Below are positions 6,071-40,152 of a stretch of DNA of 53,657 bases, in pieces (positions within the stretch are counted from its first letter, which is position 1; each line of letters begins with the position of its first letter). The DNA lies in NCBI GenBank assembly GCA_030680995.1, contig JAUXUM010000080.1:1-53657 (forward strand), given 5' to 3'. The stretch is from Devosia sp. (GTDB lineage Bacteria > Pseudomonadota > Alphaproteobacteria > Rhizobiales > Devosiaceae). The notes below the pieces were generated by a model. It had not been told where the DNA came from. It worked only from the letters and a program-made list of their open reading frames with translations, and made no database searches. A program made the position numbers and the translations under genes.

Positions 6071-6108
6071 TGGCTCTGCGCATGTTGGCTTCCCCGGATG
6101 TCCCGCCC

Positions 6109-6253
6109 CCCACCGGCCGTCATCCTCGCGCTTGTCGCGAGGACCCAGCCGCGCGACGTCTGTCGCGCGAAGGGAATTCTTTGGCGCCGCCGACGCGCCG
6201 CCGCTGGGTCCTCGGGTCTCGCCAAGGCTCGCCCGAGGATGACGGCCGGTGGG
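6109..6253. repeat. Long nested inverted repeat (element C) between iolC and iolD
   Basis: CCCACCGGCCGTCATCCTCG (6109-6128) is the exact reverse complement of 6234-6253. Inside, GAGGACCCAGC and GCTGGGTCCTC pair as well, so the transcript can fold into one hairpin of about 145 bases. It accounts for half of the 292-base iolC-iolD gap; the rest shows no gene. It could attenuate, stabilise or process the operon mRNA. Confidence 0.85.
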
Positions 6254-6362
6254 GTGCGGCTTCGTCTCGGCCGGACCTGCTTGCGCGATTTGGCTGCCAA
6301 ACCGCCCCCGCAAATCCAAGAACGGAGGTGGCCACAAGCGCCGCACGTGCGGGAGGAAACAA

Positions 6363-8210: not shown

Positions 8211-8215
8211 CTCCC

Positions 8216-8300
8216 TCATCCGGCGCTTCGCGCCACCTTCTCCCGCAAGGGGAGAAGGGGACCCGGAGTATGCCTCACCCTCCCGGCGGGGGAGGGCTAG
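8216..8300. repeat. REP-like palindromes (element D) between iolD and iolE
   Basis: The perfect hairpin CCTTCTCC-...-GGAGAAGG (8236-8258) is preceded by GGCGCTTCGCGCC and followed by CCCTCCCGGCGGGGGAGGG. The motif is shared with elements B and E. It occupies most of the 125-base iolD-iolE gap. Confidence 0.8.
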
Positions 8301-8335
8301 AAGGAAGCGCCCGAGGGCGAAGAGAAGGAACAACA

Positions 8336-9223
8336 ATGACCATCCGCATTGGCGCCAACCCGATTGGCTGGAGCAATGACGACATGCTGGAGATCGGCGG
8401 CGACATTTCGCTCGGGCAGTGCCTGAGCGAGGCCCGCGCGGCCGGCTTCACCGGCATGGAGCTGGGCAACAAGTTCCCGCGCACTGCCGGAGAGCTGCGG
8501 CCGATCCTTGCGGCGCACGGGCACGATCTGGTCTCGGGCTGGTATTCGGTGGAGCTGCTGGTCCGCGACGTCGAGGCCGAGTGGCAGGCGAGCCGGCCGC
8601 ATGCGACCCTGCTCCGGGAAATGGGGTGCGAGGCGATGATCCTCGCCGAAACCTCCAACGCCATCCACGGGCGGAAGGGGACGCCGCTCTCGGCCCGCCC
8701 GCTGTTGCCCAAGGCCGAGTGGAAGCAATGGGCGCGGCGGCTCTCGGAGTTCTCGCGGCGTTTGAAGGACGAGGACGGGCTGCAGGCCGTCTATCACTAC
8801 CACATGGGCACCATCGTCCAGGCCGAGAACGAGATCGACCGCATGATGGAGCTGACCACCGACGCGCTGGGGCTGCTGCTCGATACCGGCCACGCCGTCT
8901 ATGGCGGCGCCGACCCGGTGCGGCTGGCGCGGCACTATCGCCAGCGCATCCACCATGTGCATGCCAAGGATGTGCGCGAGGATGTGATGTGGCAAAGCCG
9001 CAGGGAGGACTGGAGCTTTCTGGACTCGGTGCTGGCCGGCGTCTACACCGTTCCCGGCGACGGGCTGATCGACTACCCTCAAATCTTCCGCGCGCTCGAA
9101 GGTTATTCGGGCTGGGTGGTGGTCGAGGCCGAGCAGGACCCGAAAAAGGCCATCCCGGCCGAATACTCAAGGCTCGGCTACAACAACCTCACCCGGTTCC
9201 TCAAGGAAGGCGGCCTCATTTGA
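8336..9223 (+). CDS. iolE: Inosose (2-keto-myo-inositol) dehydratase
   Basis: IolE removes water from scyllo-inosose to give the trihydroxycyclohexanedione that IolD uses. The 295-residue protein is a xylose-isomerase-like TIM barrel starting MTIRIGANPIGWSNDD. Likely metal ligands are in LLLDTGHAVYGGADP (Asp183, His186), the HHVHAKD motif (around residue 206) and VVVEAEQDP near the C-terminus. The track ORF starts too early; ATG 8336 has an AGAAGGAAC ribosome site and matches family length. The stop TGA overlaps a TTG start of the following small gene, so the two are probably translationally coupled. Confidence 0.95.
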   Translation: MTIRIGANPIGWSNDDMLEIGGDISLGQCLSEARAAGFTGMELGNKFPRTAGELRPILAAHGHDLVSGWYSVELLVRDVEAEWQASRPHATLLREMGCEAMILAETSNAIHGRKGTPLSARPLLPKAEWKQWARRLSEFSRRLKDEDGLQAVYHYHMGTIVQAENEIDRMMELTTDALGLLLDTGHAVYGGADPVRLARHYRQRIHHVHAKDVREDVMWQSRREDWSFLDSVLAGVYTVPGDGLIDYPQIFRALEGYSGWVVVEAEQDPKKAIPAEYSRLGYNNLTRFLKEGGLI

Positions 9224-24578: not shown

Positions 24579-25907
24579 ATGGTCCACATCAAAGTCGCGG
24601 CTGGCCTTTTGTCACTGACCGCAGCCCTTATCTCGAGCACTGCCTATGCGCAGACCGAAGTCACCTGGTGGCACGCCATGGGCGCCGAACTCGGCGAGAG
24701 GCTGGAAGCGATCGCGGCCGGCTTCAATGCCAGCCAGTCCGATTACGTCGTGACTCCCGTTTTCAAGGGCACCTATCCCGAGACCCTGACCGCCGCCATC
24801 GCCGCTTTCCGCGCCAACGAGCAGCCTGCCATCGTGCAGGTATTCGAGGTCGGCACCGGCACCATGATGGCCGCCAAGGGTGCCGTCTATCCGGTTCACA
24901 AGCTGATGACCGACAACGGCGAGCCGTGGGATCCGAGCGGCTTCCTCGCCCCCGTCGTGGGCTACTATTCGGACACCGAGGGCAACATCCTCTCGATGCC
25001 TTTCAACTCCTCGACGCCGATCATGTACTACAACAAGGACGTGTTCGAAAAAGCCGGTCTCGATCCGGAAGTCGCTCCCAGGACCTGGGCCGAAGTTGAG
25101 GAATTCTCCAGGAAGATCGTGGAATCCGGCGCGGCTCCATGCGGCTTCACCAGTGGCTGGATCTCCTGGGTGCAGCTCGAGAACCTGTCGGCCATTCATG
25201 ATGCGCCCTACGGCACGCTCGAAAACGGCTTCGGCGGTCTGGGCACCGAATTCACCTTCAACGGCGACGTGCAGGTCAAGCACTGGGAGAACCTGAAGAA
25301 GTGGGCGGATGCCGGACTGTACCAGTACGGCGGCCCTGTCGGCGGCAACGACGCCCCGCCGAAATTCTACGCGCAGGAATGCGCCATCTACACCAACTCG
25401 TCAGCCTCGCGCGCCGGTGTCATCCTCAACTCCAAGGATTTCCGGGTGGGCTTCGCGCCCCTGCCCTATTACGACGACGTCATCGCCGAGCCGAAGAACT
25501 CGATCATCGGCGGGGCGACGCTGTGGACGCTGAACGGGCATTCGCCGGAAGTCTATGCCGGCGTCGCCAAGTTCTTCACCTATCTCAGCAAGCCTGAAGT
25601 ACAGGCCGGCTGGCACCAGGCGACCGGCTATCTGCCGATCACCAACGCCGCCTATGAACTGGGCCAGAGCCAAGGCTACTACGAAGCTACGCCCGGTTCC
25701 GACATCGCCATCAAGCAGATTACCCGCGGCGAGCCCTCGGCCAATTCCAAGGGCATCCGCTTCGGCAATCTCACCCAGGTCCGCGACGCCATCGACGCCG
25801 AGTTCGAGGCCCTGCTTGCCGGCTCCAAGACTGCCAAGCAGGCTCTCGATGCGGCAGTCGAACGCGGCAACCAGATCCTGCGCGATTTCGAAGCCGCCAA
25901 CAGCTGA
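24579..25907 (+). CDS. ugpB: sn-Glycerol-3-phosphate ABC transporter substrate-binding protein
   Basis: The 442-residue periplasmic protein has a signal peptide (about 1-24, ending STAYAQ), then EVTWWHAMGAELGERLEAIAAGFN, typical of UgpB. Other family features are KGTYPETLTAAIAAFR, the NSSTPIMYYNKDVFEKAGLDP segment and the GGATLWTL region. It captures glycerol-3-phosphate or glycerophosphodiesters and hands them to UgpAE. ATG 24579 has a CAGGAGAG site. It is the first gene of ugpBAEC behind a Pho-box array, which supports the substrate assignment over other CUT1 sugars. Confidence 0.93.
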   Translation: MVHIKVAAGLLSLTAALISSTAYAQTEVTWWHAMGAELGERLEAIAAGFNASQSDYVVTPVFKGTYPETLTAAIAAFRANEQPAIVQVFEVGTGTMMAAKGAVYPVHKLMTDNGEPWDPSGFLAPVVGYYSDTEGNILSMPFNSSTPIMYYNKDVFEKAGLDPEVAPRTWAEVEEFSRKIVESGAAPCGFTSGWISWVQLENLSAIHDAPYGTLENGFGGLGTEFTFNGDVQVKHWENLKKWADAGLYQYGGPVGGNDAPPKFYAQECAIYTNSSASRAGVILNSKDFRVGFAPLPYYDDVIAEPKNSIIGGATLWTLNGHSPEVYAGVAKFFTYLSKPEVQAGWHQATGYLPITNAAYELGQSQGYYEATPGSDIAIKQITRGEPSANSKGIRFGNLTQVRDAIDAEFEALLAGSKTAKQALDAAVERGNQILRDFEAANS

Positions 25908-25921
25908 GCGTAAGACGCCAA

Positions 25922-25944
25922 GGCCCGGGCATCTTGCCCGGGCC
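25922..25944 (+). other. Perfect stem-loop after ugpB
   Basis: GGCCCGGGCA and TGCCCGGGCC form a 10-base-pair stem with a TCT loop, 15 bases after the ugpB stop. There is no T-run, so it is more likely to protect the 3' end of ugpB mRNA, or reduce read-through into ugpA, than to stop transcription fully. Such hairpins commonly raise binding-protein levels over permease levels. Confidence 0.8.
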
Positions 25945-26023
25945 GTGCTCCGACTGCCGCTTGCGTGCTGCCGGACAGGCGGCCCGCAGCGGCGGATGAC
26001 CAATCGATCAAGCCGGGGGGCAC

Positions 26024-26908
26024 ATGCAGACGAAGCGGACGATCTTTCCCAACAAGCTGCTGCCCTACGCGCTGCTGACGCCGCAGTTGATCATCACCAT
26101 CGTCTTCTTCCTCTGGCCGGCCGCCCAGGCGGTAAAATCGTCCTTCGAGCGCGAGGATCCGTTCGGGTTTCGCACCACCTTCATCTGGTTCCAGAACTAC
26201 ACGCGCCTGTTCGGCGAGCCCGAATATCTCAACTCGCTCAACCGTACCGCGATCTTCGCCATCGCCGTCACCTTCATCTCGATGAGCGTATCGCTGCTGC
26301 TGGCGGTGGCAGTGAGCAGGCTGCTGCGCTCGGGGCGCGCCTACACGACGCTGCTGGTGTGGCCCTATGCCGTGGCGCCGGTCCTCGCCGGCATCCTGTG
26401 GTGGTTCATGTTCAACCCCACCATCGGCATCGTACCCTATCTGCTCAACCAGTTCGGGATCAGCTGGAACCACCGGATCCGCGGCAATGATGCGATGGTG
26501 CTGGTGGTGCTGGCGGCGAGCTGGAAGCAGATCTCGTACAATTTCCTGTTCTTCGTCGCCGGCCTGCAATCGGTGCCGCGGTCGCTGATCGAAGCCGCCG
26601 CGATCGATGGCGCCGGCCCGTTCAAGCGGTTCTGGACCATCGTCTTTCCGCTGATCTCGCCGACCACATTCTTCCTGATGATCGTCAACATCAACTACGC
26701 CATGTTCGATACCTTCGGCATCATCGACGGCACCACCTCCGGCGGCCCGGCGGGCGCCACCAATACCTTGGTGTACAAGGTCTATGCCGACGGCTTCCTC
26801 GGGCTCAACATCGGCTCGTCTTCGGCCCAGTCGGTGGTGCTGATGGCCATTGTGATCGTCTTGACCGTGATCCAGTTCCGCTGGGTCGAGCGGCGCGTGC
26901 AGTATTAG
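26024..26908 (+). CDS. ugpA: sn-Glycerol-3-phosphate ABC transporter permease
   Basis: The 294-residue permease has six predicted helices; the first follows a basic start ([22 protein letters not shown]). The EAA loop is [21 protein letters not shown]. The stretch [31 protein letters not shown] is characteristic of UgpA. With UgpE it forms the inner-membrane channel. It begins 116 bases after ugpB, behind the stem-loop, and is followed 13 bases later by ugpE. Confidence 0.93.
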
Positions 26909-26921
26909 CAAGGACGACCGC

Positions 26922-27770
26922 ATGGTTGAGAACAGACCTTTCCTGGCCTTCCTTACGCATCTGGTGCTGATCCTGGGGGTGGCCGTCGTCGTATTCCCGG
27001 TATACCTGGCCTTCATCGCCTCCACTCACGGATCGGGCGATTTCCTGCGCGGGCTGGTGCCACTGCTACCGGGACCGCACATGATCGAAAACTACGCGCG
27101 GATGCTCAATTCGGGCCTCTCGACGGCCGGTGCGCCGCCGGTCTGGCTCATGCTCGCCAACTCGCTGTTCATGGCGCTGACCATCGCCATCGGCAAGATC
27201 GCCATCTCGATCATCTCCGCCTATGCCATCGTCTATTTCAAGTTTCCGTTCCGGCTGCTGGCCTTCTGGCTGATCTTCATCACGCTGATGCTGCCGGTCG
27301 AGGTGAGGATCATCCCCACCTTCAAGGTTGTCGCCGATCTGGGCATGCTCAATTCCTACGCGGGACTGACCATCCCGCTGATCGCCTCGGCGACGGCCAC
27401 GTTCCTCTTCCGCCAGTTCTTCCTCACCGTCCCCGACGAACTGATGGAGGCGGCGCGCGTCGACGGCGCAGGGCCGCTCAAGTTCTTCCGCGACATCCTG
27501 CTGCCGCTGAGCCAGACCAACATCGCCGCGCTGTTCGTCATCCTCTTCATCTACGGCTGGGTGCAGTATCTCTGGCCGCTACTGGTGACCACCGACAGCC
27601 GCTATTACACCATCGTCATGGGCATCAAGCGGCTCGCCGCCGCCGCCGAAAGCGATCCCTACTGGAACCTGGTGATGGCGGCGGTGATACTGGCCATGCT
27701 GCCGCCGGTGCTCGTCATCATTTTCATGCAGCGCCTGTTCGTCAAAGGACTGGTGGAAACGGAGAAATAA
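26922..27770 (+). CDS. ugpE: sn-Glycerol-3-phosphate ABC transporter permease
   Basis: The 282-residue permease has six helices and the EAA loop [21 protein letters not shown]. The start [31 protein letters not shown] and the end ([34 protein letters not shown]) match UgpE closely. It pairs with UgpA and is followed by ugpC after five bases, which implies coupled translation. Confidence 0.93.
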
Positions 27771-27775
27771 GAACA

Positions 27776-28825
27776 ATGGCAACCATCGAGCTCTCCGGCA
27801 TCAGGAAAGTCTATCCGGGCAACGTCACGGCCATCCACGACCTCGACCTTTCGGTGGACGATGGCGAACTGGTGGTGCTGGTGGGTCCCTCCGGCTGCGG
27901 GAAATCGACGTTGCTGCGCATGGTGGCGGGGCTCGAAACCACCACCGCGGGCACCGTCTCGATCGGCGGCGCCGTGGTCAACCGCCTCGAGCCGTCCGAC
28001 CGCGACATCGCCATGGTGTTCCAGAACTACGCGCTCTATCCGCATATGACGGTGCGCGGCAACCTCGAATACGGCCTCAAGAACCGCGGCACGCCGCGGA
28101 CGCTGATTGACGAGCGGGTGGCCGAGGCCGCGCGCATCCTCGAGATCGCGCCCTTCCTCGAGCGCAAACCGCGCCAGCTTTCGGGCGGGCAGCGCCAGCG
28201 CGTCGCCATGGGCCGCGCCATCGTGCGGCAGCCCAAGGCCTTCCTGTTCGATGAGCCGCTCTCCAATCTCGATGCCAAGCTGCGCGGCCAGATGCGGGTC
28301 GAGATCCGGCGCCTGCAGCGGACCTTGCGGACAACGAGCCTGTATGTGACGCACGACCAGCTGGAAGCCATGACACTGGCCGACCGGCTGGTGGTGATGA
28401 ACGCCGGCCGCATCGAGCAGTTGGGCAAGCCGACCGAACTCTATGAACGGCCCGCCTCGCTTTTCGTCGCCGGCTTCATCGGCTCGCCGCCGATGAACTT
28501 CTTCGATCTCGAATATCTGCGGGAGAAGGCCGGCGCTTCGCTGCCAACTCTATCGGATGACAGCGACATCATCGGCATAAGGCCCGACAGCATCGTGCTG
28601 GCCGACCCGCAGGAACCCTCGATCCCGCTGCGCGGCACGGTGGAGCTGATCGAGCCGGTGGGCGGGGAGAGCCATCTGCACCTGCGCCTGGAAGGCTCGG
28701 ACCAGCTCATCATCGTCGAAACACCCGGACGGCCCGACGCCGCCGAAGGCACGCTGCTGACAGCACATCTGCGCGCTCGCGCATTGCATCCGTTCAACCG
28801 GCAGTCCGGCCTGCGCACGGCATAG
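27776..28825 (+). CDS. ugpC: sn-Glycerol-3-phosphate ABC transporter ATP-binding protein
   Basis: The 349-residue CUT1-type ATPase has Walker [11 protein letters not shown]-loop [12 protein letters not shown], signature [16 protein letters not shown], Walker [17 protein letters not shown] and switch His in [10 protein letters not shown]. Residues about 235-349 are the MalK-like regulatory domain with TOBE strands (GIRPDSIVL). It powers UgpAE and, in other bacteria, the C-terminal domain is a target of phosphate-dependent inhibition. It is last in the operon. Confidence 0.93.
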
Positions 28826-28912: not shown

Positions 28913-29851
28913 TCACATCAGCGCGTCGGGGCCGGCTCCGCAAATCAGGGCGCCGACGGACTGGTCCGCGCCGGCGGTGACCTTTTTCGCCCGGAGGGCA
29001 GCGATCGCCGCGGCGCCGCTGAGGTCGGCCGCGATGCCGAGCTCGAACCACAGCCAGCGGCTCGCCTCCAGCATCTCCGCGTCCGAAACCAGCACGATGT
29101 CTTCGACATGGTCGCGAACCAGGCCGAACACGCCGGGATCGGTTTCGGCGCAGGACATGGTGGCGACCAGGCTGGTGACGGCCGGCAGTCGCACGACATG
29201 CCCTGCATCGAGGGACGCCTTGAGCGTCGGCGATCCTTCTGGTTCGATACCGATGATCCGGACCGACGGCTTGAGCGCCTTGAGCGCCACACCCATACCC
29301 GAGATCAGGCCCCCGCCGCCGATCGCGATCAGCACCACATCGAGATCCGGAACATCGGCCAGCAGCTCGAGTGCCGCCGTGCCCTGCCCGGCCATCACCT
29401 GCGCGTCGGCGAAGGGGTGGAAATAGGCGGCGCGGTTGCGCTCGGCAAAGGCCAGCGCATGCAGATTGGTTTCGTTCCATACCGAGCCGATGACTTCGAC
29501 GCGCGCACCCCAACGCTCAAGCTTTTCAAGCTTCGCGGGCGTAATGTTCCGGGGCACGAAGATTGTTGCCTTGACCCCGGCAAGCCGCGCCGCCCGGGCC
29601 ACCGCCAGTCCGTGATTGCCACCCGAGGCGGTCACGATGCCACCGGCAAGCTCCTCCTTGGGGGTACACAGCAGCTTGTTGGTCGCGCCACGCGCCTTGA
29701 ACGAGCCTGTCGCCTGCAGCGATTCCAGCTTCAGTGACAGCTTTGCTGCAGTCACCGGCTCGGCGAGCGCTGTGACGGCGAGCATCGGCGTGCGGCGCAC
29801 ATGCGGCGCGATCCGCGCCGCCGCGGCCTCGATATCGGAAAGGTCTATCAT
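28913..29851 (-). CDS. PLP-dependent threonine/serine dehydratase-like protein (EutB-type)
   Basis: The 312-residue fold-type II PLP enzyme has the PLP lysine in ATGSFKARGA, the substrate loop TASGGNHGLAVA and the phosphate-binding GGGGLISG. Such enzymes deaminate hydroxy amino acids. ATG 29851 overlaps the upstream deacetylase stop as ATGA, which fixes the start; the track start 29893 lies inside that gene. Its pairing with a DoeB-like deacetylase recalls the rhizobial ectoine-use genes, where EutB is a threonine-dehydratase-like protein. No regulatory ACT domain is present, so this is a catabolic type. Confidence 0.88.
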   Translation of the reverse strand: MIDLSDIEAAAARIAPHVRRTPMLAVTALAEPVTAAKLSLKLESLQATGSFKARGATNKLLCTPKEELAGGIVTASGGNHGLAVARAARLAGVKATIFVPRNITPAKLEKLERWGARVEVIGSVWNETNLHALAFAERNRAAYFHPFADAQVMAGQGTAALELLADVPDLDVVLIAIGGGGLISGMGVALKALKPSVRIIGIEPEGSPTLKASLDAGHVVRLPAVTSLVATMSCAETDPGVFGLVRDHVEDIVLVSDAEMLEASRWLWFELGIAADLSGAAAIAALRAKKVTAGADQSVGALICGAGPDALM

Positions 29852-30870
29852 GCCACCGAGCCCGAATAGGGTGACGCCACCACGAGGCAGCAATTACCTG
29901 GCCTGACCCGGCCCGGTTGGCGCCGGCTGTAAAGAATGCCGTCGGCGTGATAGTGCAGCTCGACGGGCGTCCGGCCCGGATTGGCGAGGAAATGGATGCG
30001 GCCCGCCAGCTCGCCGGCATGCACTTCCGTCCCAAGCCGATGCAAGGCTTCGAACACGCCATCGTCTTCGGCCAGCACGTGCGCGCTGGCAGAGAGCGCA
30101 TAGTGCCTCGGCTCGCTGGTCGGCGGGCTGGCCATTTCGGGCGGCAGAACCTGCAAATGCGCCAGCACGTTGCGCACGCCGCGCCGGCACAGACTGAGCG
30201 CCTCGATGGAGACCGCGCCCGCGCCGGCCATCTCGGTGCCGACGACGGTGAGGCCTGCTTGCGCGGCCGACGCCGTCGCGGTGCGCGGATCACCGCGATT
30301 GTCGATGACGACGATGATCGGCGCATCGAAGGCCGTGACCGCCGCGAGGTTCCGGGCGTGCTTGACCGGATCGCTCACCGGCTCGATCACGGCGCTCGGA
30401 ATTATGTCAAGCGAGGAGCCGCCCGAGTGCAGATCAATGAAGGCGTCGCCGATTGGAAACAGCACGTCGTTGACGTAAGCGGCGAGCTGCTGGGTCGTGG
30501 TACCGAATGGATCGCCCGGAAAACTCCGGTTCATGTTGATCTCGTCGATCGGCGAGGTGCGGCGCGCGGCGACCACTGCCGGCAAATTGATCGCCGGAAT
30601 GAAGATCAACCGCCCCGACAACCGCCCCGGATCCAGCTCACGGATCAGTTCGCCAAGGGCAATCGGGCCCTCATACTCGTCGCCGTGATTGCCGCCTTCC
30701 AGGATGACGGTCGGGCCGCTGCCGTTGCTGATAACCGTCAGCGGCACGCGCACGGCGCCCCAGGCATCGTCGTGAACCGACAGCGGCAGGCTGAAGAACC
30801 CTACCTGCTTGCCCGGCCTGTCGAAGTCCACGGTGGAGCTCACCATCTTCATCGTTCGATTTCGGTCCAT
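29848..30870 (-). CDS. Succinylglutamate desuccinylase/aspartoacylase-family deacylase, DoeB-like
   Basis: The 340-residue zinc deacylase has the metal motif GGNHGDEYEG (His and Glu ligands), the partner INMNRSFPGDPFGT, and the third ligand in FIDLHSGGSSLD. The glutamate base is probably in the later EMAGAGAVSIEAL. It resembles DoeB, which removes acetate from N-acetyl-diaminobutyrate in ectoine breakdown. ATG 30870 (MDRNRTMKMVSS) is chosen; the track start 30894 is a TTG. It overlaps the dehydratase start by four bases. Ectoine hydrolase (DoeA) and uptake genes are missing nearby, so the true substrate may be another N-acyl amino acid. Confidence 0.85.
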   Translation of the reverse strand: MDRNRTMKMVSSTVDFDRPGKQVGFFSLPLSVHDDAWGAVRVPLTVISNGSGPTVILEGGNHGDEYEGPIALGELIRELDPGRLSGRLIFIPAINLPAVVAARRTSPIDEINMNRSFPGDPFGTTTQQLAAYVNDVLFPIGDAFIDLHSGGSSLDIIPSAVIEPVSDPVKHARNLAAVTAFDAPIIVVIDNRGDPRTATASAAQAGLTVVGTEMAGAGAVSIEALSLCRRGVRNVLAHLQVLPPEMASPPTSEPRHYALSASAHVLAEDDGVFEALHRLGTEVHAGELAGRIHFLANPGRTPVELHYHADGILYSRRQPGRVRPGNCCLVVASPYSGSVA

Positions 30871-30977
30871 TTTCAACTCTGCGCGGGTGATCAAGAAACT
30901 GCCGCCGCCATCCCATTGCCGGGGTCCGTCCGGTGCCGGAAGGCTACAGCCCTGAATGTCGGGGAAGATTGATTATT

Positions 30978-31012
30978 ACATATGATATTTGACGTTGATG
31001 TATGATACTTGA
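30978..31012. promoter_or_regulatory. 20-bp-spaced direct repeats in the deacylase/IclR divergent promoter
   Basis: TATGATATTTGA (30981-30992) and TATGATACTTGA (31001-31012) match at 11 of 12 positions and are exactly 20 bases apart, two helical turns. They lie in an AT-rich patch between the divergent genes and are the best candidate binding site for the IclR regulator encoded next door. Confidence 0.55.
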
Positions 31013-31097
31013 TCCGGAGATGTCAATGTCATTTGTCTGCCCCCTCTTGTGCGGCCGGCAATGACTTGCGATCAGAGTGCATAGGGAGAATTACGCG

Positions 31098-32024
31098 ATG
31101 GCCAAGAACGCGCGCCCGGCAGGCGAAACCGCCAAGACGGGCGCCGCCGACACCGGTCCCAAACAAGGCGGCAAGGTCACACGCAGCGCCAAAGCGGTCC
31201 GCGCGCCGTCCGAAAAGCTCGCATATGGCGCGCCGGCCCTGGAGAAGGGCCTCGACGTCCTCGAACTGCTCGCCAACCTCTCGGAAGGCGTTACCCAAAG
31301 CGAGATCGCCCAACGCCTTGGCCGATCGCTGCAGGAGGTCTACCGGGTCGTGGTGGCGCTCGAACGGCGCGGCTACATCCAGCGCCGGCCGGGCGAGGAC
31401 GGGTTCTTCCTCTCCAACCGCCTGCACGACCTGTCCAACCACTATCCGCCGATGCGCCGCCTGCTCGATGCGGCCCTGCCGATCCTCAACCGCGTCTCGA
31501 GCGACGCCTACCAGGCCATGCACCTGGCCGTTCTCGACCGCACCGCGATGCGCGTCGTCGCCCAGGTCGACAGCCCCGCCCCGCTCGGCTTCCGCCTTAG
31601 GGTGGGCACGCAGAACCCGGCGGCCAAGACGGCGTCGGGCCGCCTGCTGATCGCCTACCAGCCTCCGGTGATGAAGCAATGGGTGCTGGACGAGATCGCC
31701 CGCACCAGCCCCGAAATCGACATGACCGCCCTGCGCCAGCGCGTCGAGGCGCTGCACGAACGCGGCTACGAGATCATCGCCGGCGAAGGGCTGCAGGGCA
31801 TCACCGATGTCAGCTTCCCCATCCTCGACGCCCAGGGATTCGCGCCAGCGGTGTTGACCATGCCTTACCTGTCGTCCGCGACCGAACGCGTTCCGCTCGA
31901 GGCGGCATCGCGCCTGCAGTTCGAGGCGGCGCGCACGATCTCGGAAGGACTTGACGGCCAGTTGATCGAGCCGCGCTTTCCCCTCACCGAACCCAAGGCC
32001 AAGTTCGCACCCGCAACGACATAG
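31098..32024 (+). CDS. IclR-family transcriptional regulator
   Basis: The 308-residue regulator has a basic, low-complexity N-terminus (about 1-40), the IclR winged HTH (about 47-105; GLDVLELLANLSEGVTQSEIAQRLGRS) and the effector-binding domain (about 120-290; AKTASGRLLIAY and the late VSFPILDAQGFAPAVLTMP). IclR proteins control catabolic operons through small carboxylate effectors. ATG 31098 has an AGGGAGAATT site; GTG 31077 of the track is less likely. It is divergent from the deacylase/dehydratase pair, and a similar direct repeat upstream of the sugar-binding-protein gene suggests a wider regulon. Confidence 0.9.
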   Translation: MAKNARPAGETAKTGAADTGPKQGGKVTRSAKAVRAPSEKLAYGAPALEKGLDVLELLANLSEGVTQSEIAQRLGRSLQEVYRVVVALERRGYIQRRPGEDGFFLSNRLHDLSNHYPPMRRLLDAALPILNRVSSDAYQAMHLAVLDRTAMRVVAQVDSPAPLGFRLRVGTQNPAAKTASGRLLIAYQPPVMKQWVLDEIARTSPEIDMTALRQRVEALHERGYEIIAGEGLQGITDVSFPILDAQGFAPAVLTMPYLSSATERVPLEAASRLQFEAARTISEGLDGQLIEPRFPLTEPKAKFAPATT

Positions 32025-32032
32025 CGCGGTGG

Positions 32033-32398
32033 TCATGGAATTCTCCGATCGTCAGGCAGCAGCGCGTGGCTGAACACCTCCTCGAGCCACAGCGGCTCGC
32101 CGTCCGTCGTCGCGATCGTGTCGAACACCTGGTCGAGCGAGGCCGTCCAACGGGCCTGCACGGCGCTGAGTCCGGTGACCGCGACCGCCGCGCTGTAGCC
32201 CGCCCTGGCGCGCATGCGGCAGACGACGATCTCTTCGTGCCGCCATATCTGGTAGTCGTAGATGCCCGCGGCGTCTATCAGCGCCCGGATCTCCGGCCAG
32301 ACCTCGGCGTGCCGCCGGTCGTATTCCGGGCCGGCGCCGGGTCTTAGCCGGTAGAGGTAGAGGAACGCTTCGCCAGGCGCGGGATTCCTGTGGTTCAT
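32033..32398 (-). CDS. L-rhamnose mutarotase-family protein
   Basis: The 121-residue protein matches the RhaM/DUF718 family: YDRRHAEVWPEIRALIDAAGIYDYQIWRHEEIVVCRM contains the conserved H..vWPE and aGI.dY segments. These small dimeric proteins interconvert alpha and beta anomers of L-rhamnose or L-fucose. ATG 32398 overlaps the permease stop as ATGA, so it is the last gene of the sugar transporter operon. The track start at 32605 lies inside the permease. Confidence 0.88.
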   Translation of the reverse strand: MNHRNPAPGEAFLYLYRLRPGAGPEYDRRHAEVWPEIRALIDAAGIYDYQIWRHEEIVVCRMRARAGYSAAVAVTGLSAVQARWTASLDQVFDTIATTDGEPLWLEEVFSHALLPDDRRIP

Positions 32399-33282
32399 CG
32401 CACCGCTCCCGCCACCGCGCCGGAGAGGATCTGCCGCTGGAACAGGAAATAGACCACCATCACCGGCAAGAGCGCCACGATCAGCCCGGCGCTGATCAGC
32501 GGGATCGAGACGTCGTACTGCCCCGACAGCAGCGCCACGCCGACCATCAGCGTGGTCTTCTCCGATCCGCCCATGATCACCAGCGGCAGCAGCAGGTCGT
32601 TCCACATCCAGACGAAATTGAGGATGGAGAGCGCCGCGATCGCCGGTGTCGAGATCGGCAGCAGGATCTGGAACAGGATGCGCAGGTCGCCGGCCCCGTC
32701 CATCCGCGCCGCTTCGATCAGTTCACCCGGGATGGAGCGGAAATAGGCGGCGAGCATGTAGGTGCTGATCGGCAGGCCGAAGGCGCCATAGGCGAGGATC
32801 AGCCCCTGATAGGTGCCGCCGAAGCCGAGATCGAGAATGGTTTCGTAGAGCGGATAGATCACCACCTGGCTCGGGATCACCAGCATGGCGATGATGAACA
32901 GGAAGATGAAGTTGCTGCCCCAGACCTTGAGCTTGGTCACCGCGTAGGCGAGAAACAGCGCCGCCAGCGTCGACAGCAGCAGCCCGCCGGCGGTGGTGAC
33001 GACGCTGTTGAACAGCAGGCGCGGCACGTTCATGCGGAAGAAGGTGTCGACATAGTTCTCGAAGGTGATGTCGGCGACGAAGCCGAGCGGATCCTGGGCG
33101 AAGGCCGCGCGGGTCTTGAACGAGTTTACCACCGTGAAGATCAGCGGGTAGAGCGACACCACCGCGACGATGACCAGGGCGAGGGTCACCAGCCACCTGG
33201 CGATCCCCCACGACCGCAAATTGGCGGGCGGCACGGTACGGTCGCGCGGCGCCGCCAGCGCTGTGCCCGCAGGTACGCTCAT
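32395..33282 (-). CDS. Carbohydrate ABC transporter permease (CUT1, MalG-type)
   Basis: The 295-residue protein has six helices, a signal-anchor start after MSVPAGTALAAPRDRTVPPANLRSW, and the EAA loop IEAARMDGAGDLRILFQILLPIS. It forms the sugar channel with the upstream permease. ATG 33282 overlaps the upstream stop as ATGA; the track start 33726 reads through that gene. The substrate is probably a deoxysugar or glycoside, judging from the mutarotase. Confidence 0.9.
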   Translation of the reverse strand: MSVPAGTALAAPRDRTVPPANLRSWGIARWLVTLALVIVAVVSLYPLIFTVVNSFKTRAAFAQDPLGFVADITFENYVDTFFRMNVPRLLFNSVVTTAGGLLLSTLAALFLAYAVTKLKVWGSNFIFLFIIAMLVIPSQVVIYPLYETILDLGFGGTYQGLILAYGAFGLPISTYMLAAYFRSIPGELIEAARMDGAGDLRILFQILLPISTPAIAALSILNFVWMWNDLLLPLVIMGGSEKTTLMVGVALLSGQYDVSIPLISAGLIVALLPVMVVYFLFQRQILSGAVAGAVR

Positions 33283-34223
33283 TGGGCAGCGCCCTTTCCT
33301 TCCATGTACATTCGGCGCACCACGAAGGCCGAGACGATGGCGACGAACACGAACAACGCCATGCCGATGGCTGCGCCTTTCCCGCGGTTGAGGAATTCGA
33401 AAGTGGTGGTGAACACCAGATATTCGGGCAGCATGGTGGAACTGCCCGGCCCGCCGCGGGTCAGGGCGTAGATCAGCGGGAACATCCAGATCAGCATACC
33501 GGAGGTGCAGAGCACCGTCCAATATCCCAGCACCGGCCGGATCAGCGGAATGGCGATGTCGATCATCAGCCGCCAGAAGCCGGCGCCGTCGAGTCGCGCC
33601 GCTTCCACCACCTCTTCGGGTAGCGTGGCGAGGCCAGAGAGATAGGTCAGTACCCCGAGGCCAAAAAAGCTCCAGAAGGCCACGGCGACCAGTGACAGCA
33701 GCGCGCTGTCGGCGCCATTCAGCCATTCGATCGCCAGCGGCGCCATCCCCGCCATGCGCAGGAAGGCGTTGAGCGGCCCGTCGGGGGCGAGGATCTGCCG
33801 GAACATGATGCCGACAACGATCGGCGCAATCATGTAGGGCAGGAAATACACCGCCCGGAAGACCTTCCAGCCGGGCGAGCGCTGGAAGATCAGCAGCGCC
33901 AGGATGAGCGGCACGAAGATCCAGATCGGCAGCGTGGCAAAGATCAGCAGCGCATTGCGGAAAGCGGCAATGAAGGTCGGGTCGCGCAGCATCGACTCGT
34001 AATTGGCGAACCAGGCGAAGGCGGGCTCCTCGAAACCGCGCGTCTCGAACAGGCTGAGCCAGGCCGCGCGCAACAGCGGCACCAGCTTGAACAGGATGGC
34101 GAGAACGACCCCCGGGAGCACCAGCACCAGACCGAGGATCACGTCGCCGCGGAGGGCAAAACGCCGCCAGCCGCGCTGATCGGAGGGTGATGACTTGAGC
34201 GGCGCGTCAACTTTGCTTGTCAT
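33279..34223 (-). CDS. Carbohydrate ABC transporter permease (CUT1, MalF-type)
   Basis: The 314-residue permease starts MTSKVDAPLKSSPSDQRGW, has six predicted helices and the EAA-type loop VEAARLDGAGFWRLMIDIAIP. It is the partner of the MalG-type permease and lies 70 bases after the binding-protein gene, behind a stem-loop. ATG 34223 is preferred; the track extends to 34355 without a better start. No dedicated ATPase gene is present, so it may share an ATPase such as UgpC (inference). Confidence 0.9.
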   Translation of the reverse strand: MTSKVDAPLKSSPSDQRGWRRFALRGDVILGLVLVLPGVVLAILFKLVPLLRAAWLSLFETRGFEEPAFAWFANYESMLRDPTFIAAFRNALLIFATLPIWIFVPLILALLIFQRSPGWKVFRAVYFLPYMIAPIVVGIMFRQILAPDGPLNAFLRMAGMAPLAIEWLNGADSALLSLVAVAFWSFFGLGVLTYLSGLATLPEEVVEAARLDGAGFWRLMIDIAIPLIRPVLGYWTVLCTSGMLIWMFPLIYALTRGGPGSSTMLPEYLVFTTTFEFLNRGKGAAIGMALFVFVAIVSAFVVRRMYMEGKGAAQ

Positions 34224-34253
34224 CGAAAACCCCCAAGGACCCCTGATGGGCCG

Positions 34254-34283
34254 CGGTGGGACCGGACAATGCCGATCCCACCG
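34254..34283 (-). other. Stem-loop between the sugar-binding-protein and permease genes
   Basis: CGGTGGGA (34254-34261) and TCCCACCG (34276-34283) form an 8-base-pair stem, extended after one mismatch by CGG/CCG with a six-base loop. It sits 10 bases after the binding-protein stop, the same arrangement as after ugpB, and probably stabilises the binding-protein mRNA. Confidence 0.7.
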
Positions 34284-34293
34284 TCTTTGGCAA

Positions 34294-35604
34294 TCAGCTC
34301 TTGCTGGGGCTCGCTTCGAGCGCGGTCTGCATGCGCGCGGCCCAGTCAGCGACACTGAGGCGGCCGAGGGTCACTTCCTGCCAGCCGCGGGCCAGCGCAT
34401 CGGCTTCCTGGCCGCTCAGCAGCACTCCCACATGCAGCGTCGGGAACTTGATGATCTCGAGGATCTGCGAGAGCGCCTGGGATTTCGGCAGCAAGTTCGG
34501 ATCGACGTTCTTGTTCAGCGAGATGCCGCCGGCGATGGTGGTGAGGAGATTGGCATTCTCCGCCCCGGCGACGAATTTCACGAACTCAAACGCCGCTTCC
34601 TGCTTGGTGCTCCACTTGGAGACGCCGAACACCGAACTCTCGATTCCACTGAACTTCTTGGCCAGCGGCGCATCGGGCACGATGCTCGGCCAGCGCATGG
34701 CACCCACGTTTTCGTCACCGAGGGCTGCGCCGAACGCCGCCCAGTTGACCGCGTCGGCGATGATGGTGCTGGCAAAGGCGGCGTTGCCGCTCTGGAAGAT
34801 GTCGGCGCCGTCGGGCAGCATGCTGATCGAGGGCGCGCTGCTGTTGAACCAACCCCTCTCGCCAATGCTGGCCATGGCTTCCAGGATGCTGATCATCTTG
34901 GGATCGGTCCAGGGCATGTCGCCAGCCAGGACGGCGCGCATGTCGTCCTCCGTGAGGAAGTTGCGGGCGACTTCGGGAAAGTTCCAATAGGTCGGAAAGA
35001 CGCCGGTCATGCCGAGCGCGAGGCAGGTCTTGCCGATCGCCTTTACCGCGGTACAGGCCGCGTCCATCTCATCCCAGGTCTTGGGCGGATTTTCCGGGTC
35101 GAGACCGGCGGCGGCCAAGACCTTCTTGTTGTAGTACATAACGTTGCCCTGGTAGCCGAAGGGCAGGCCGTAGCACGGCTGGGCGGTATCGAAGTTCAGA
35201 CACCCGCCGCTATAAGTCAGCAGTTCCTGGCCGGCTTCAAGCACCTCCGCCGGCAATTCGACATAGGCGCTACGGCGATCGAAGAGTTCGAGCCCGGCAT
35301 TGTTCTCCATGACGTCCGGGCCGCTCTTGGTGGTGATATAGGGCCCCTGCACTTCCGGATAGCGGTCGAAGGGGACCGTCTCCAGCTCGACCTTGATGGC
35401 AGGATTGGCCGCCTCGAAGGCTGCCACGAGGGCGGTCCAGTATTCCGCGCCACCCGGCTGCCAGTTGAGGACGCGGATGGTAGTAACCTCCTGCGCCACC
35501 GCCGGCACAGAGAACGGCGCCATCAACGCCGCGACGAGGACTGCCGGGCCGGCAGCACGCAACAGCCAGCGGTGGTTCTGAAATCTCTTCGATTGTTCAC
35601 GCAC
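34294..35604 (-). CDS. Carbohydrate ABC transporter substrate-binding protein (CUT1 family)
   Basis: The 436-residue periplasmic protein has a long signal peptide (about 1-38, ending SVPAVAQE) and the extracellular solute-binding family 1 pattern: IRVLNWQPGGAEYWTALVAAFEAANPAIKVE, DVMENNAGLELFD and YYNKKVLAAAGLDPENPPKTWDEM. The GTG start at 35604 has an AGAAGGGAAC ribosome site. It is first of the operon binding protein-MalF-MalG-mutarotase. The substrate is unknown. Confidence 0.9.
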   Translation of the reverse strand: MREQSKRFQNHRWLLRAAGPAVLVAALMAPFSVPAVAQEVTTIRVLNWQPGGAEYWTALVAAFEAANPAIKVELETVPFDRYPEVQGPYITTKSGPDVMENNAGLELFDRRSAYVELPAEVLEAGQELLTYSGGCLNFDTAQPCYGLPFGYQGNVMYYNKKVLAAAGLDPENPPKTWDEMDAACTAVKAIGKTCLALGMTGVFPTYWNFPEVARNFLTEDDMRAVLAGDMPWTDPKMISILEAMASIGERGWFNSSAPSISMLPDGADIFQSGNAAFASTIIADAVNWAAFGAALGDENVGAMRWPSIVPDAPLAKKFSGIESSVFGVSKWSTKQEAAFEFVKFVAGAENANLLTTIAGGISLNKNVDPNLLPKSQALSQILEIIKFPTLHVGVLLSGQEADALARGWQEVTLGRLSVADWAARMQTALEASPSKS

Positions 35605-35935
35605 GTCGTGTTCCCTTCTGGTTGTGGATCGACCGATCTTGCGAATGAAGCCCGGTCAGGCGACTTCGTGTAGACCCCGCCGGCTGGCTCCCCCGCCGCG
35701 CCGACATCGCTGCATCAACTTCCATTCTCTTGACCTTCCGGGGGCCGCCGGACTGCCGACTTGCCCCCGTTACCCGTCACCAGGACACGGCCGCCATGTC
35801 GCAAGAAAGCGACCCCGGCCCGCACGCCCCCCCCGAGCGTCCTGCTGCCCTGCCCGATTTCGGTCGTTGGTCATAAGTTAGCACAAGACTGTCACATATG
35901 AAACGACAATTTCTTATACGAAAGTCAACTGGTTC
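35605..35935. promoter_or_regulatory. Promoter region of the sugar ABC operon with 20-bp-spaced repeats
   Basis: This 331-base gap holds no gene. At its far end ATATGAAA (35896-35903) and ATACGAAA (35916-35923) are direct repeats exactly 20 bases apart, the same spacing as in the IclR promoter, where the core is also TATGA. TTGACT on the minus strand (near 35925) could be a -35. The middle part is GC-rich and shows nothing further. Confidence 0.45.
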
Positions 35936-37024
35936 TCAGGCCATTTCCGGCACAACGCCGCCGAGGCGGCTGGACCTGAGCGCCGCATCGACCAGCGCCA
36001 TGGTCTTGATGGAGTCGTGCACGTCGGTATCCAGTACGTCGTCTTCCCCGGCCGCGAAGCGCTGCAGGTTCGACATCACCGCCCCAAAGGCGTCCGGCAC
36101 CCGTTCTCCGACGAGCGGGACCTGGGTCCATGCCCCGCCCTCAACGACCATTTCCAGCATTTCGGGCACCGGGTTCACGTAGTCGACGAGATAGCCCAGC
36201 GTGAGATGGGCGCAGCCCTTCGTGCCCTCGACCCGGATCGTCGCTTCGACATGCTCCGGCCCATAATTGTAGGTGTGGTTCAGCGAGAGGCAGCAGCGCG
36301 CCTTGTCGCCATAGTCGAGGATGATGCTGCTGCGGGCGTCCTTGAGCATGGGATAGCGTGGATGCTGCACGGTCTTGGCGTAGACGCTGACCGGTTCCCC
36401 GAGCAGGGAGCGGATCCAGTCGATATAGTGCACCGAGTGCAACGGAATTTCGACAGCATCGAGATGCGGGATGAACGACCACAATTCCCAGGGCATGTAG
36501 ACGGCGAGCCGGACTTCGACCTCGACGATGTCGCCCAGCATCCCGCGCCGCGCCGCATCGCGTATGGCCAGCATCGAGGGTGTGAAGCGCAGCTGGAAAT
36601 TCGTCGCCGCGGTGATGCGGCGCGCATCGATGGCCTTGATGATCTGCCGGGCCGCCGGCAGGCCGGTGCCGAGCGGCTTCTGGACCAGCGCCACGCCGCC
36701 GGAGGGCAGACGCTCTACAGTCTCCAGAATGGCCTTGGGCGGCAGCGCCAGATCGAAAATGCCGTTCGTCCCGGTGCTGGCAACGGCCGCCTCAAGGCTT
36801 TCATGCACAATGGGCACGCCGAAGTCGTCCGCCACGCTGCGCGCCCGCGCCGTGTCGATGTCGTAGATGCCCGCTACCGGCAGGCCGATCTTGCGATAGG
36901 CCGGCAGGTGTCCGTCGCGCACGATTCCCCCCGCCCCGATGATGGTGATCGGCCTCGGGCGGCTCGGCATGGGCCAGCTCTGCCGGAGATCGGCAAACGA
37001 GGCGTTGGACAATCCACTCTGCAT
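35936..37024 (-). CDS. Gfo/Idh/MocA-family oxidoreductase
   Basis: The 362-residue NAD(P)-dependent sugar dehydrogenase has the nucleotide fold ITIIGAGGIVRDGHLPAYR, the QKPLG variant of the EKP motif (catalytic Lys) and the C-terminal beta domain with PHLDAVEIPLHSVHYIDW, giving an Asp/His pair. ATG 37024 has a CAGGAG site; the track ORF to 37432 is extended through the promoter. It lies upstream of the sugar transporter genes, same strand, and is divergent from the glycoside-hydrolase-like gene, so it probably oxidises the sugar released and imported by this locus. Confidence 0.9.
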   Translation of the reverse strand: MQSGLSNASFADLRQSWPMPSRPRPITIIGAGGIVRDGHLPAYRKIGLPVAGIYDIDTARARSVADDFGVPIVHESLEAAVASTGTNGIFDLALPPKAILETVERLPSGGVALVQKPLGTGLPAARQIIKAIDARRITAATNFQLRFTPSMLAIRDAARRGMLGDIVEVEVRLAVYMPWELWSFIPHLDAVEIPLHSVHYIDWIRSLLGEPVSVYAKTVQHPRYPMLKDARSSIILDYGDKARCCLSLNHTYNYGPEHVEATIRVEGTKGCAHLTLGYLVDYVNPVPEMLEMVVEGGAWTQVPLVGERVPDAFGAVMSNLQRFAAGEDDVLDTDVHDSIKTMALVDAALRSSRLGGVVPEMA

Positions 37025-37103
37025 GCGGAGACTCCTGGTTGGCACCTGTGGCGCGGAACGGCGAGACAGGACGCCGTGCACGCAGTTTGTATCACTAACG
37101 ATA

Positions 37104-37129
37104 GTTGATGTTGATATTTGATATTGATG
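37104..37129. promoter_or_regulatory. TTGATR repeat array in the divergent promoter
   Basis: Four hexamers TTGATG, TTGATA, TTGATA, TTGATG (37105-37129, a single T in the middle) form a regular array between the MocA-type dehydrogenase and the glycoside-hydrolase-like gene. The 10-mer TGATATTTGA (37112-37121) is identical to one half of the repeat upstream of the IclR gene. It is a candidate operator for both divergent units. Confidence 0.5.
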
Positions 37130-37223
37130 CTGTTTTACTCTGTCAAGGACGGCAATAGGCGCCAGATGGAACGCCGCCGCGATCGGATTGGAGGCTGCTG
37201 TGGATGAGTCGGAGACAACCGGA

Positions 37224-38873
37224 ATGACGAGCACGATGGCAATCGCGGGAATCGAGGCCCATCCGCACGCGACGCGACGCCTGCGCGAGTCCTTCCCCGA
37301 CATCGACTTCGTGCCCGCCCCCGTTGCAGCGGACGTGCCGGTCGTCCGTTTCGCCGAAGACCCCTCGCTGGTCGAAGGCGGCTTCATCATTTCGACGCAC
37401 GCGCGCGCAGGCGGGCCGGCCGAGATCCTCATTACCGGCGGCCCGTTCTCGGGTGTTATCTATGGCACCGAGGAACTTATCCGCCGCAGCGGCAGCCGGC
37501 TGGATGCAGCGGCGCTCGGTACTGCCCCGATCGCGGATGCCCCCGGCCTGCCCTATCGTAGCGTCTGGACCTGGGATCATTCCACCAATTGGGAACTCTC
37601 CCAGATCGGCCAGCAGGAGATCGGCGTGTTCAACCCCTTCCAGAAGCCGCCCGGCGGGTTTCTGGCCGACTACAAGCGGCTGGTGGACCACTGCAGCCGC
37701 AACCGCATCGCCGGTGTGATCGTCTACGGGTTCCTTCGCGACAGCCACGGCGGGATCGAAGCGGGGCATGAGCTCTGCCGCTATGCCAATGAGCGTGGGG
37801 TGCGCATTATCCCCGGCATCGCCATCGGCGCCTATGGCGGCGTCTATTGGGAAGGCAGGCACAGGTACAACCTCGCCACCTGGCTCAAGGCCAACCCCCA
37901 ATTCGAAGCGCAGATGGAAAAGGAGATCGGGTTCCAGATCGCAGATCTCGCCTTCCCGCTAAACTTTCCCCATTCCGACTACACCATGACCGCCTGCCCC
38001 AGCGCGCCCGAAACCATCGAATGGATGGAAGAGGCCGTCGCCTGGCTGGCCGAAACCTTCGACATCGGCGGCATCAATATCGAGAGCGGCGATTACGGCG
38101 TCTGCGGCTGCCGGCGCTGTGTCGCCCGCCGCGCCAATCCCACCGAAGCGGACCGGCGCAGGGACCAGTACGGCGATTCCTGGTCGCACACCGACATGGC
38201 CGAGAACTTTCCGCGCCTCTATCGCGCCGCCACCGCCAAGAAGCCGAACCTTTGGATGTACTGCGAGATGCAGTGGGACAATCTGCTCGATCCGGTCGCG
38301 CGGGAGGCGCAAGAGCGCCTGCCCAAGGGTGCCATCTACCAACATACGGTCAACCGCAGCTTCTGGAGCACGCTCAAGACCACCCTGACCCGGGACTATG
38401 TCGAGGCGCTGCCCACCCAGCCCAACGTGCTGCGCTGCCAGTTCGCCTGCCAATGGAATGGCGACGAGCGCACCGAGCGCTATGCACTCAATGCCGCGAC
38501 CTTCGCCGAAATGTCGCACAAGGCCCTAGAAGCGGGCATGCAGGGCATCACCGTCTGGGCCGAGCCTTCCGCCTATCACGCAACGGTGGAACTGAGCTAT
38601 CTCGCCTTCGCCCGCTTCGGCTGGGAGCCCACGCTGACCTGGGAGCGGTTCCTGGACGAGGACGCCGCGCCCATGCTGGGCGGCCGCGCCGCCGCCGACC
38701 GGTTCGTCGCCATCGCGTCCGAAATCGACGCCAACCAGACCCTGCCGGTCGAGCGCCTGGCCCAATTGCGCCAAGAGGCGCTGCAGGAGTGCGTCGACAA
38801 GACCGGCGAGCCGGCCCGCCGCTGGCTGACGCTGGGCGAACAGATCGCCCGGCGCGAATATATGGGGCGTTGA
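37224..38873 (+). CDS. Glycoside-hydrolase-like protein, family not identified
   Basis: The 549-residue protein has no signal peptide. The N-terminal 90 residues (GGPFSGVIYGTEELIRRSG) look like the alpha/beta domain that precedes the barrel in GH20 and alpha-glucuronidase-type enzymes. The rest looks like a TIM barrel with acidic loops, for example GGINIESGDYGVCGCRRC and GITVWAEPSAYHATVELSY, where conserved Glu residues could be catalytic. The CxC..C segment could bind a metal. ATG 37224 has GTCGGAGACAACC upstream; the track start at 37188 is a TTG. It overlaps the start region of the amidohydrolase and is divergent from the dehydrogenase. It is likely an intracellular enzyme on an imported glycoside; I cannot assign a family. 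Confidence 0.7.
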   Translation: MTSTMAIAGIEAHPHATRRLRESFPDIDFVPAPVAADVPVVRFAEDPSLVEGGFIISTHARAGGPAEILITGGPFSGVIYGTEELIRRSGSRLDAAALGTAPIADAPGLPYRSVWTWDHSTNWELSQIGQQEIGVFNPFQKPPGGFLADYKRLVDHCSRNRIAGVIVYGFLRDSHGGIEAGHELCRYANERGVRIIPGIAIGAYGGVYWEGRHRYNLATWLKANPQFEAQMEKEIGFQIADLAFPLNFPHSDYTMTACPSAPETIEWMEEAVAWLAETFDIGGINIESGDYGVCGCRRCVARRANPTEADRRRDQYGDSWSHTDMAENFPRLYRAATAKKPNLWMYCEMQWDNLLDPVAREAQERLPKGAIYQHTVNRSFWSTLKTTLTRDYVEALPTQPNVLRCQFACQWNGDERTERYALNAATFAEMSHKALEAGMQGITVWAEPSAYHATVELSYLAFARFGWEPTLTWERFLDEDAAPMLGGRAAADRFVAIASEIDANQTLPVERLAQLRQEALQECVDKTGEPARRWLTLGEQIARREYMGR

Positions 38874-38875
38874 GC

Positions 38876-39793
38876 GTGGCCGGAGACCGGTCATTGCGCG
38901 ATGCGGGCGGGCTCTATTGCGGCCCGGTCGTCGACGCCCACCATCATCTGTGGGACCTCTCGCTGGGCCGCCACCCGTGGCTGAAGCCGGCCGCGGGCGG
39001 CGACAGCGAGCTGGCCGGCGACCATATCCCCGCCGACTACGCGCGCGCTGCGGCGGGCCACAACGTGGTCGCGACCGTCCATGTCGAAGCCGGCTGGGAC
39101 GCGGACGATCCGTTCGGGGAAATCGCCTGGCTCGACAGCCTCGACAAGCCGCACGGCATCGCCGCGCGCTACGTCGCCCATGCACGCCTCGCGGACCCCG
39201 GGGTCGAGGCGGTGCTCGACCGCCACGCCAGCCACCCGCGGATCGCCGGCATCCGCGAGATCGTGAGCTGGCATCCGGATCCGGCAAAGTCCGCCAGCGC
39301 AAGAAACGACAGGATGGACGATCCAGCCTGGCGCCGGGGCCTTGCCGCGCTGGGGCGGCTTGGCCTGTCGTTCGACCTGTTGATTTCGCCCTTTCAGTTG
39401 GCCGACGCGCTCCGCCTCGCCGGCGACTTCCCCGACATTGTCTTCGTGCTCAACCATTGCGGCTCGCCAATGGACCGGGACCCCGACGGCATGTCGCGCT
39501 GGCGCCACGGCCTCAAGGCCCTCGCCGCGGCGCCCAATGTCGCGCTCAAGATCTCCGACCTCGTCGCCTACGATCCCAGTCCGACGCTGGCCACCCTCGG
39601 CGACGTCGTCCGCACCTGCCTCGACTGCTTCGGCACCGGTCGCGCGATGCTGGCGAGCGACCACCCGGTCGAGGCGCTGCACGCCTCCTTCCGCGAAACA
39701 TATGGCGCCTTCAAGTTCATACTTGCCGACCTCACCGACGACGAGTCGATCGCCCTGTTTTCTGGAAACGCCCTGAGGTTCTACAAGTTCTGA
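38876..39793 (+). CDS. Amidohydrolase-2 family lactonase (L-fuconolactonase-like)
   Basis: The 305-residue TIM-barrel hydrolase has VVDAHHHLWDLS (the HxH metal pair), FVLNHCGSP, LKISDLVAYD and MLASDHPVE (late Asp), the pattern of the fuconolactonase/LigI-like group. It would open a sugar lactone made by the dehydrogenase in this locus. The true gene is masked in the track by a long shadow from 37847. GTG 38876 is chosen; TTG 38870 overlaps the upstream stop as TTGA and is equally possible. It is coupled to the glycoside-hydrolase-like gene. Confidence 0.85.
   Translation: MAGDRSLRDAGGLYCGPVVDAHHHLWDLSLGRHPWLKPAAGGDSELAGDHIPADYARAAAGHNVVATVHVEAGWDADDPFGEIAWLDSLDKPHGIAARYVAHARLADPGVEAVLDRHASHPRIAGIREIVSWHPDPAKSASARNDRMDDPAWRRGLAALGRLGLSFDLLISPFQLADALRLAGDFPDIVFVLNHCGSPMDRDPDGMSRWRHGLKALAAAPNVALKISDLVAYDPSPTLATLGDVVRTCLDCFGTGRAMLASDHPVEALHASFRETYGAFKFILADLTDDESIALFSGNALRFYKF

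Positions 39794-40075: not shown

Positions 40076-40152
<77 letters not shown>

Follow-up and report, generated by a model that had tools for sequence, protein, structure and literature searches.

The breakdown of amino sugars is commonly taken to start with phosphorylation. Among the enzymes that act on them, the GH20 and GH84 families are N-acetylhexosaminidases; GH20 enzymes have an adjacent Asp–Glu pair at the end of strand 4 and GH84 enzymes an adjacent Asp–Asp pair. In the Ong pathway, by which Pseudoalteromonas degrades chitin oxidatively, deacetylation of N-acetylglucosaminate, PLP-dependent deamination to KDG and phosphorylation by KdgK have been proven (PMC9537276; PMC12017989), and the deacetylase OngB is D-aminoacylase-like (PMC9537276). 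Here we analyse a 53,657-nucleotide stretch of Devosia sp. DNA (the window). Its central locus belongs to a co-regulated gene set, found mostly in soil bacteria, whose products probably take up a sugar conjugate, cleave it by means of a glycosidase from an undescribed family and oxidize, rather than phosphorylate, the nitrogen-bearing sugar that is freed. Both the cutting enzyme and the assembly of the pathway appear to be uncharacterised so far; a search of open-access papers found no report of the cassette.

Gene content and extent of the locus

A sequence-only reading of 32033–39793 had described a mutarotase, a CUT1 importer, a MocA-type dehydrogenase, a fuconolactonase-like lactonase and a 549-residue hydrolase with a C-G-C-R-R-C loop. 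Domain matches place the named genes where that reading had put them, and the hydrolase, here called protein H, has the length and loop described (Table 1). The boundary was drawn too short, however: conserved neighbourhood and operator-like sites indicate that the deacylase, PLP dehydratase and IclR genes are part of the same system. We lean, by a small measure, towards reading 28913–39793 as a single catabolic regulon under IclR control whose substrate is a conjugated N-acylated 2-amino-2-deoxy sugar.

Table 1. Genes and putative operators of the H cassette, in window coordinates
Feature	Position	Strand	Matches and remarks
PALP-type serine/threonine-dehydratase-like PLP enzyme (proposed 2-amino-aldonate ammonia-lyase)	28913-29851	-	PF00291, 254 bits; near H in 18 loci
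AstE/DoeB-type deacylase (proposed N-acyl-2-amino-aldonate deacylase)	29848-30852	-	PF24827, 126 bits; near H in 21 loci
Tandem operator (putative)	30971-31010		Main site 30971-30990, weaker abutting site 30991-31010; rank 1 in window, 27.2 bits
IclR-family regulator	31077-32024	+	PF01614, PF09339; conserved with H in 15 loci
L-rhamnose mutarotase family protein (RhaM-like)	32033-32398	-	PF05336, 60.5 bits; below YiiL equivalog cut-off
CUT1 ABC permease	32395-33282	-	PF00528, 72 bits
CUT1 ABC permease, UgpA-like	33279-34223	-	PF00528, 32.5 bits
CUT1 substrate-binding protein	34294-35604	-	PF13416, 91.5 bits
Tandem operator (putative), upstream of binding-protein gene	35887-35926		Main site 35907-35926, weaker abutting site 35887-35906; rank 2, 24.1 bits
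Gfo/Idh/MocA dehydrogenase (proposed sugar 1-dehydrogenase)	35936-36970	-	PF22725, PF02894, PF01408
Tandem operator (putative), between MocA and H	37087-37126		Main site 37087-37106, weaker abutting site 37107-37126; rank 3, 21.5 bits
Protein H, 549 aa (proposed unclassified glycosidase)	37224-38873	+	Family alignment, model, GH20/GH138/GH84-like fold
Amidohydrolase-2, fuconolactonase-like (proposed aldonolactonase)	38876-39793	+	PF04909, 112 bits; FuconLaconase about 110 bits, cut-off 400

Start codons were picked by codon score, except for the binding protein, for which the longer form with a signal-peptide-like start was kept. Overlaps of 4 nt join the dehydratase and deacylase genes, the mutarotase gene and its neighbouring permease gene, and the two permease genes, and 2 nt separate H from the lactonase gene. 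The importer had been described as lacking an ATPase, and none is encoded within 32033–39793; the nearest, at 27776–28825, could serve it. That ATPase gene ends a run (24579–28825) that begins with UgpB (511 bits, cut-off 411) and adjoins the cassette. The lactonase scores 109.7 bits against the L-fucono-1,5-lactonase model NF052480, which requires at least 400, and is assigned only as a related amidohydrolase-2 protein. A tRNA-Met gene (40076–40152) lies just past it. Elsewhere in the window, 4175–9220 encodes myo-inositol catabolism, with a fused IolC kinase/aldolase, IolD and IolE each over its curated cut-off.

Conserved neighbourhood and operator-like sites

One scan of species genomes found H in 54 loci, mainly in Rhizobiales, Rhodobacterales and Microbacteriaceae, with a few in bins labelled Chloroflexota. 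Few genomes carry the gene: it occurred in 5 of 298 in the order, counting the window's own, and in 2 of 399 in the phylum. Spread by plasmids was considered and dropped, with no match to H among 72,556 plasmids. A phage-integrase-family gene near a cassette-less H gene in a Rhodobacterales genome (L022:8111–9367) hints at mobility.

Clustering of neighbouring genes revealed a conserved cassette around H in Devosia, Kaistia, Rhizobium and relatives. With the window included, score thresholds set by us and an overlap filter that loses a few genes, the genes near H are those for MocA (22 loci), the deacylase (21), the dehydratase (18), IclR (15), the lactonase (14) and the mutarotase (14). MocA relatives above 54% identity occurred, within the sample, only in genomes with H, and paralogues at or below 53% were more widespread. 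The deacylase and dehydratase genes remain beside H where gene order and transporter have changed (L005, L015, L017, L020, L023 and L024), which favours a single system for an N-acylated amino sugar; at L009 and L014 the deacylase stands beside H without the dehydratase.

In Microbacteriaceae (L039–L042 and L054), H adjoins a mutarotase, a MocA enzyme, an amidohydrolase-2 protein, an M20 ArgE/DapE-type deacylase, a class-V PLP enzyme and a ribose-type importer. This deacylase and PLP enzyme are non-homologous to those of the window cassette, and such apparently equal logic from different proteins is the main functional clue in favour of an amino-sugar substrate. RidA, near H in four loci, argues in the same direction. 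The Microbacteriaceae importer counts against the preferred reading, as the usual cargo of ribose-type importers is monosaccharides. The same holds for two further observations: in one Rhodobacterales clade H occurs outside the cassette, and the genomes checked from that clade have no MocA orthologue (the sole match, at 42% identity, is in the genome of L031); Bauldia litoralis (L005) has the deacylase and dehydratase and lacks a MocA orthologue. H may thus work in other genetic settings, or a different dehydrogenase may stand in for MocA.

Other genes also lie beside H. An operon of a 553-residue binding protein (SBP16), a FucU-like mutarotase and a ribokinase-like PfkB protein often adjoins it (7–8 loci); copies were noted at L005, L006, L014, L020, L024, L031, L036, L051 and L052. 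The operon occurs in 33 of 298 genomes and in 4 of the 5 with H (the copy in the window's own genome is at C250:5339–6979), and because it is common without H too, we treat it as a neighbour of uncertain link. In Kaistia (L008:13855–16922), and at the equivalent place in L010, L013 and L048, a GH4 glycosidase gene and an oligopeptide-type ABC ATPase gene stand beside the H cassette.

A palindrome search of 43 intergenic regions found sites like AnTATCATnnATGATAnT (log-likelihood 308–354, versus 26–37 for shuffled sequence). These regions are not all independent, since some come from related genomes and one duplicates window sequence. A matrix trained on relatives, without the window, gave its three highest scores in 53.6 kb to the sites at 30971 (27.2 bits), 35907 (24.1 bits) and 37087 (21.5 bits), in that order; no site outside the cassette exceeded 10.5 bits. 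When training was confined to regions between the deacylase and IclR genes (AstE|IclR), the top six matches were the three main sites and their abutting partners; three non-homologous intergenic regions thus share one motif. That one palindrome takes these ranks in three unrelated regions favours a common regulon. Training on regions upstream of the binding-protein gene only, which put the site between MocA and H 11th, counts against it. Loci without H (291 kb) gave 15 matches of at least 15 bits, many in low-GC stretches. The palindromes would be bound by the IclR-family protein.

Protein H and its structural relatives

Alone, H matched no Pfam or NCBIfam model above threshold and no PDB sequence meaningfully. 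It lies outside the named families tested (Pfam, NCBIfam and PDB sequence), in keeping with the earlier statement that it matched no family that could be named. In a 40-row alignment, members are 55–76% identical to the window protein and share many invariant residues. The AlphaFold2 model (pLDDT 87.5, pTM 0.90) has a GH20-type N-domain and a TIM barrel, and its nearest folds by Foldseek are GH20, GH138 and GH84; the presence of GH20 and GH84 among them favours an amino-sugar substrate. Strand 4 closes with E287-S-G-D290, and Y-G-V-C294-G-C296-x-x-C299 comes next; C258 is likewise invariant, and E348 and E447 mark the ends of strands 5 and 8, respectively. The barrel with two glutamates that had been anticipated is borne out in part: the barrel is predicted, and invariant E287, D290, E348 and E447 stand at strand ends as candidate catalytic residues.

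The H profile reaches GH20 chains weakly (E 4e-4), and 18 of the 40 members touch GH20 domain 2 (PF02838, best E 2.4e-5); none is listed for the GH20 catalytic-domain model PF00728 at E up to 10. The GH20 fold is matched by Foldseek at E 4.5e-14 (TM about 0.5, 12–14% identity) and by hhalign at a probability of 28.9%, so low that the strand-4 register of that alignment is not trusted. GH138 gives the best TM to the query (0.58). For GH84 there is a fold match only, with no Pfam match for the family listed among the 40 members. As modelled, H resembles these families, its best Foldseek matches, in a GH20b-like N-domain and a TIM barrel, but differs from them in its low identity, the lack of a PF00728 match, an extra four-cysteine set and the absence, across the 40 sequences, of any invariant adjacent acid pair. 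This last difference from GH20 and GH84 counts against the preferred reading. Viral structures matched H only weakly, the top two being annotated beta-N-acetylhexosaminidase. DUF4838 (PF16126), which also has a C-x-C-x-x-C loop after a strand-end acid, was considered and rejected: one of the 40 members touches the model (E 0.23), short of the Pfam cut-off of 26.6 bits, and no members of that family were found in the window's own genome or in the 399 genomes of the phylum.

From the predicted fold and the absence of an obvious signal peptide, we infer that H is a cytoplasmic, unclassified glycosidase. It might instead be a lyase, an isomerase or another barrel enzyme that acts on the imported compound within a cassette for an amino-sugar derivative, as the missing GH20/GH84-type acid pair, the ribose-type importer of Microbacteriaceae and the low model confidence of a strongly conserved stretch (residues 120–135) would allow. 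The two-domain architecture, the strong GH20, GH84 and GH138 fold matches and the invariant acidic residues that close strands 4, 5 and 8 make this unlikely.

A proposed oxidative route and its relation to known systems

In the preferred reading, where the substrate is an N-acylated 2-amino sugar in conjugated form, the CUT1 importer with its borrowed ATPase would take up a small glycoside, which cytoplasmic H would cleave to release a free N-acyl amino sugar. The mutarotase would provide the correct anomer, the MocA enzyme would oxidize C1 to yield a lactone and the amidohydrolase would open this to an N-acyl-2-amino-aldonate. The AstE-type enzyme would then strip the acyl group and the PALP-type enzyme remove ammonia, leaving a 2-keto-3-deoxy-aldonate that, if the sugar is gluco-configured, could enter the genome's KdgK and KDPG-aldolase route. 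A KDPG aldolase over its curated cut-off and a KdgK-like kinase are encoded in the genome, which counts for this reading. The sugar, its linkage and the activity of H are our inference. The steps first suggested (import, cleavage, lactone-forming oxidation and hydrolysis) are still the best account of the front end; the N-deacylase, PLP dehydratase and IclR regulator of the back end had been missed. Given these back-end enzymes, a conjugated N-acylated 2-amino sugar becomes a likelier substrate than the sugar acid or neutral glycoside.

Among the closest systems is an uncharacterised sister cassette of Rhizobiales (L126–L134), which, like the H cassette, has a MocA enzyme (a paralogue, about 42–53% identity), RhaM, an amidohydrolase-2 lactonase, IclR and a CUT1 importer. 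Several loci of the sister encode a sugar-acid dehydratase of the enolase superfamily together with CoA-transferase and MaoC proteins, whereas the H cassette has H, the deacylase and the PLP dehydratase. Part of one copy (L126) lies on contig C8 of the window's own genome, which ends before any dehydratase appears. The equal front end, with a deacylase and PLP dehydratase replacing the enolase-type enzyme as an N-acylated amine at C2 would require, again favours an amino sugar. The sister seems to be a pathway for a neutral sugar, deoxysugar or sugar-acid glycoside (import, cleavage, dehydrogenation and lactonase), and the mutarotase and lactonase families are best known from rhamnose and fucose; the H cassette might serve such a substrate with the deacylase and dehydratase unrelated to it. 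As these two are co-conserved with H and have the operator in common with the sugar genes, and as the cassette has no sugar-acid dehydratase, we regard this as quite improbable. Apiose, an idea suggested by the match to structure 5uhw, was set aside: the match is weak (54.7 bits) and the papers searched gave nothing decisive.

That the deacylase and dehydratase instead perform ectoine or hydroxyectoine catabolism (DoeB/EutE and EutB) as chance neighbours of a sugar cassette is highly improbable: although DoeB is the best NCBIfam match of the deacylase and EutB is among those of the dehydratase, they score well under the curated cut-offs (298.1 against 402.7 and 209.7 against 413.35 bits, the dehydratase falling under all NCBIfam equivalog cut-offs), EutD/DoeA was not found in the genome, and the pair has operators in common with the sugar genes.

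More tentatively, and at somewhat less than an even chance, H may be the founding member of a new glycoside-hydrolase family in which a four-cysteine loop that might bind metal lies by the active site. Under this same reading, the route that H serves would start with a dehydrogenase, dispense with phosphorylation and handle N-acylated 2-amino sugars; it would have been put together once in Alphaproteobacteria and once in Microbacteriaceae, with deacylases and PLP enzymes that are not homologous between the two. If the preferred reading is true, the glycosidases would gain an unclassified family and amino sugars a second oxidative route of independent origin, and DoeB/EutB-like pairs found outside ectoine metabolism would need new annotation. 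With five soluble enzymes, one regulator and three operators, the system is tractable for asking which amino-sugar conjugate is scavenged.

The proposed route would work like the second half of the marine Ong pathway: there, an N-acetyl-aldonate is deacetylated, deaminated by a PLP enzyme to KDG and passed to KdgK, as is proposed here. The Ong cluster also contains a RidA protein, as do the surroundings of some H genes, and there a GH20 enzyme frees the oxidized sugar. The Ong enzymes are a D-aminoacylase-like deacetylase and a deaminase (OngC) annotated as a D-amino acid deaminase, whereas those here are of the AstE/DoeB and serine/threonine-dehydratase types. The Ong pathway relies on an SSS transporter, TonB receptors and periplasmic cleavage; here a CUT1 importer and cleavage by a cytoplasmic H are proposed. 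Because the deacylase family differs, and because the acid would be formed by a dehydrogenase and a lactonase and not, as in the Ong pathway, from LPMO-oxidized chitin, we consider the proposed route an analogue of that pathway and not a member of it.
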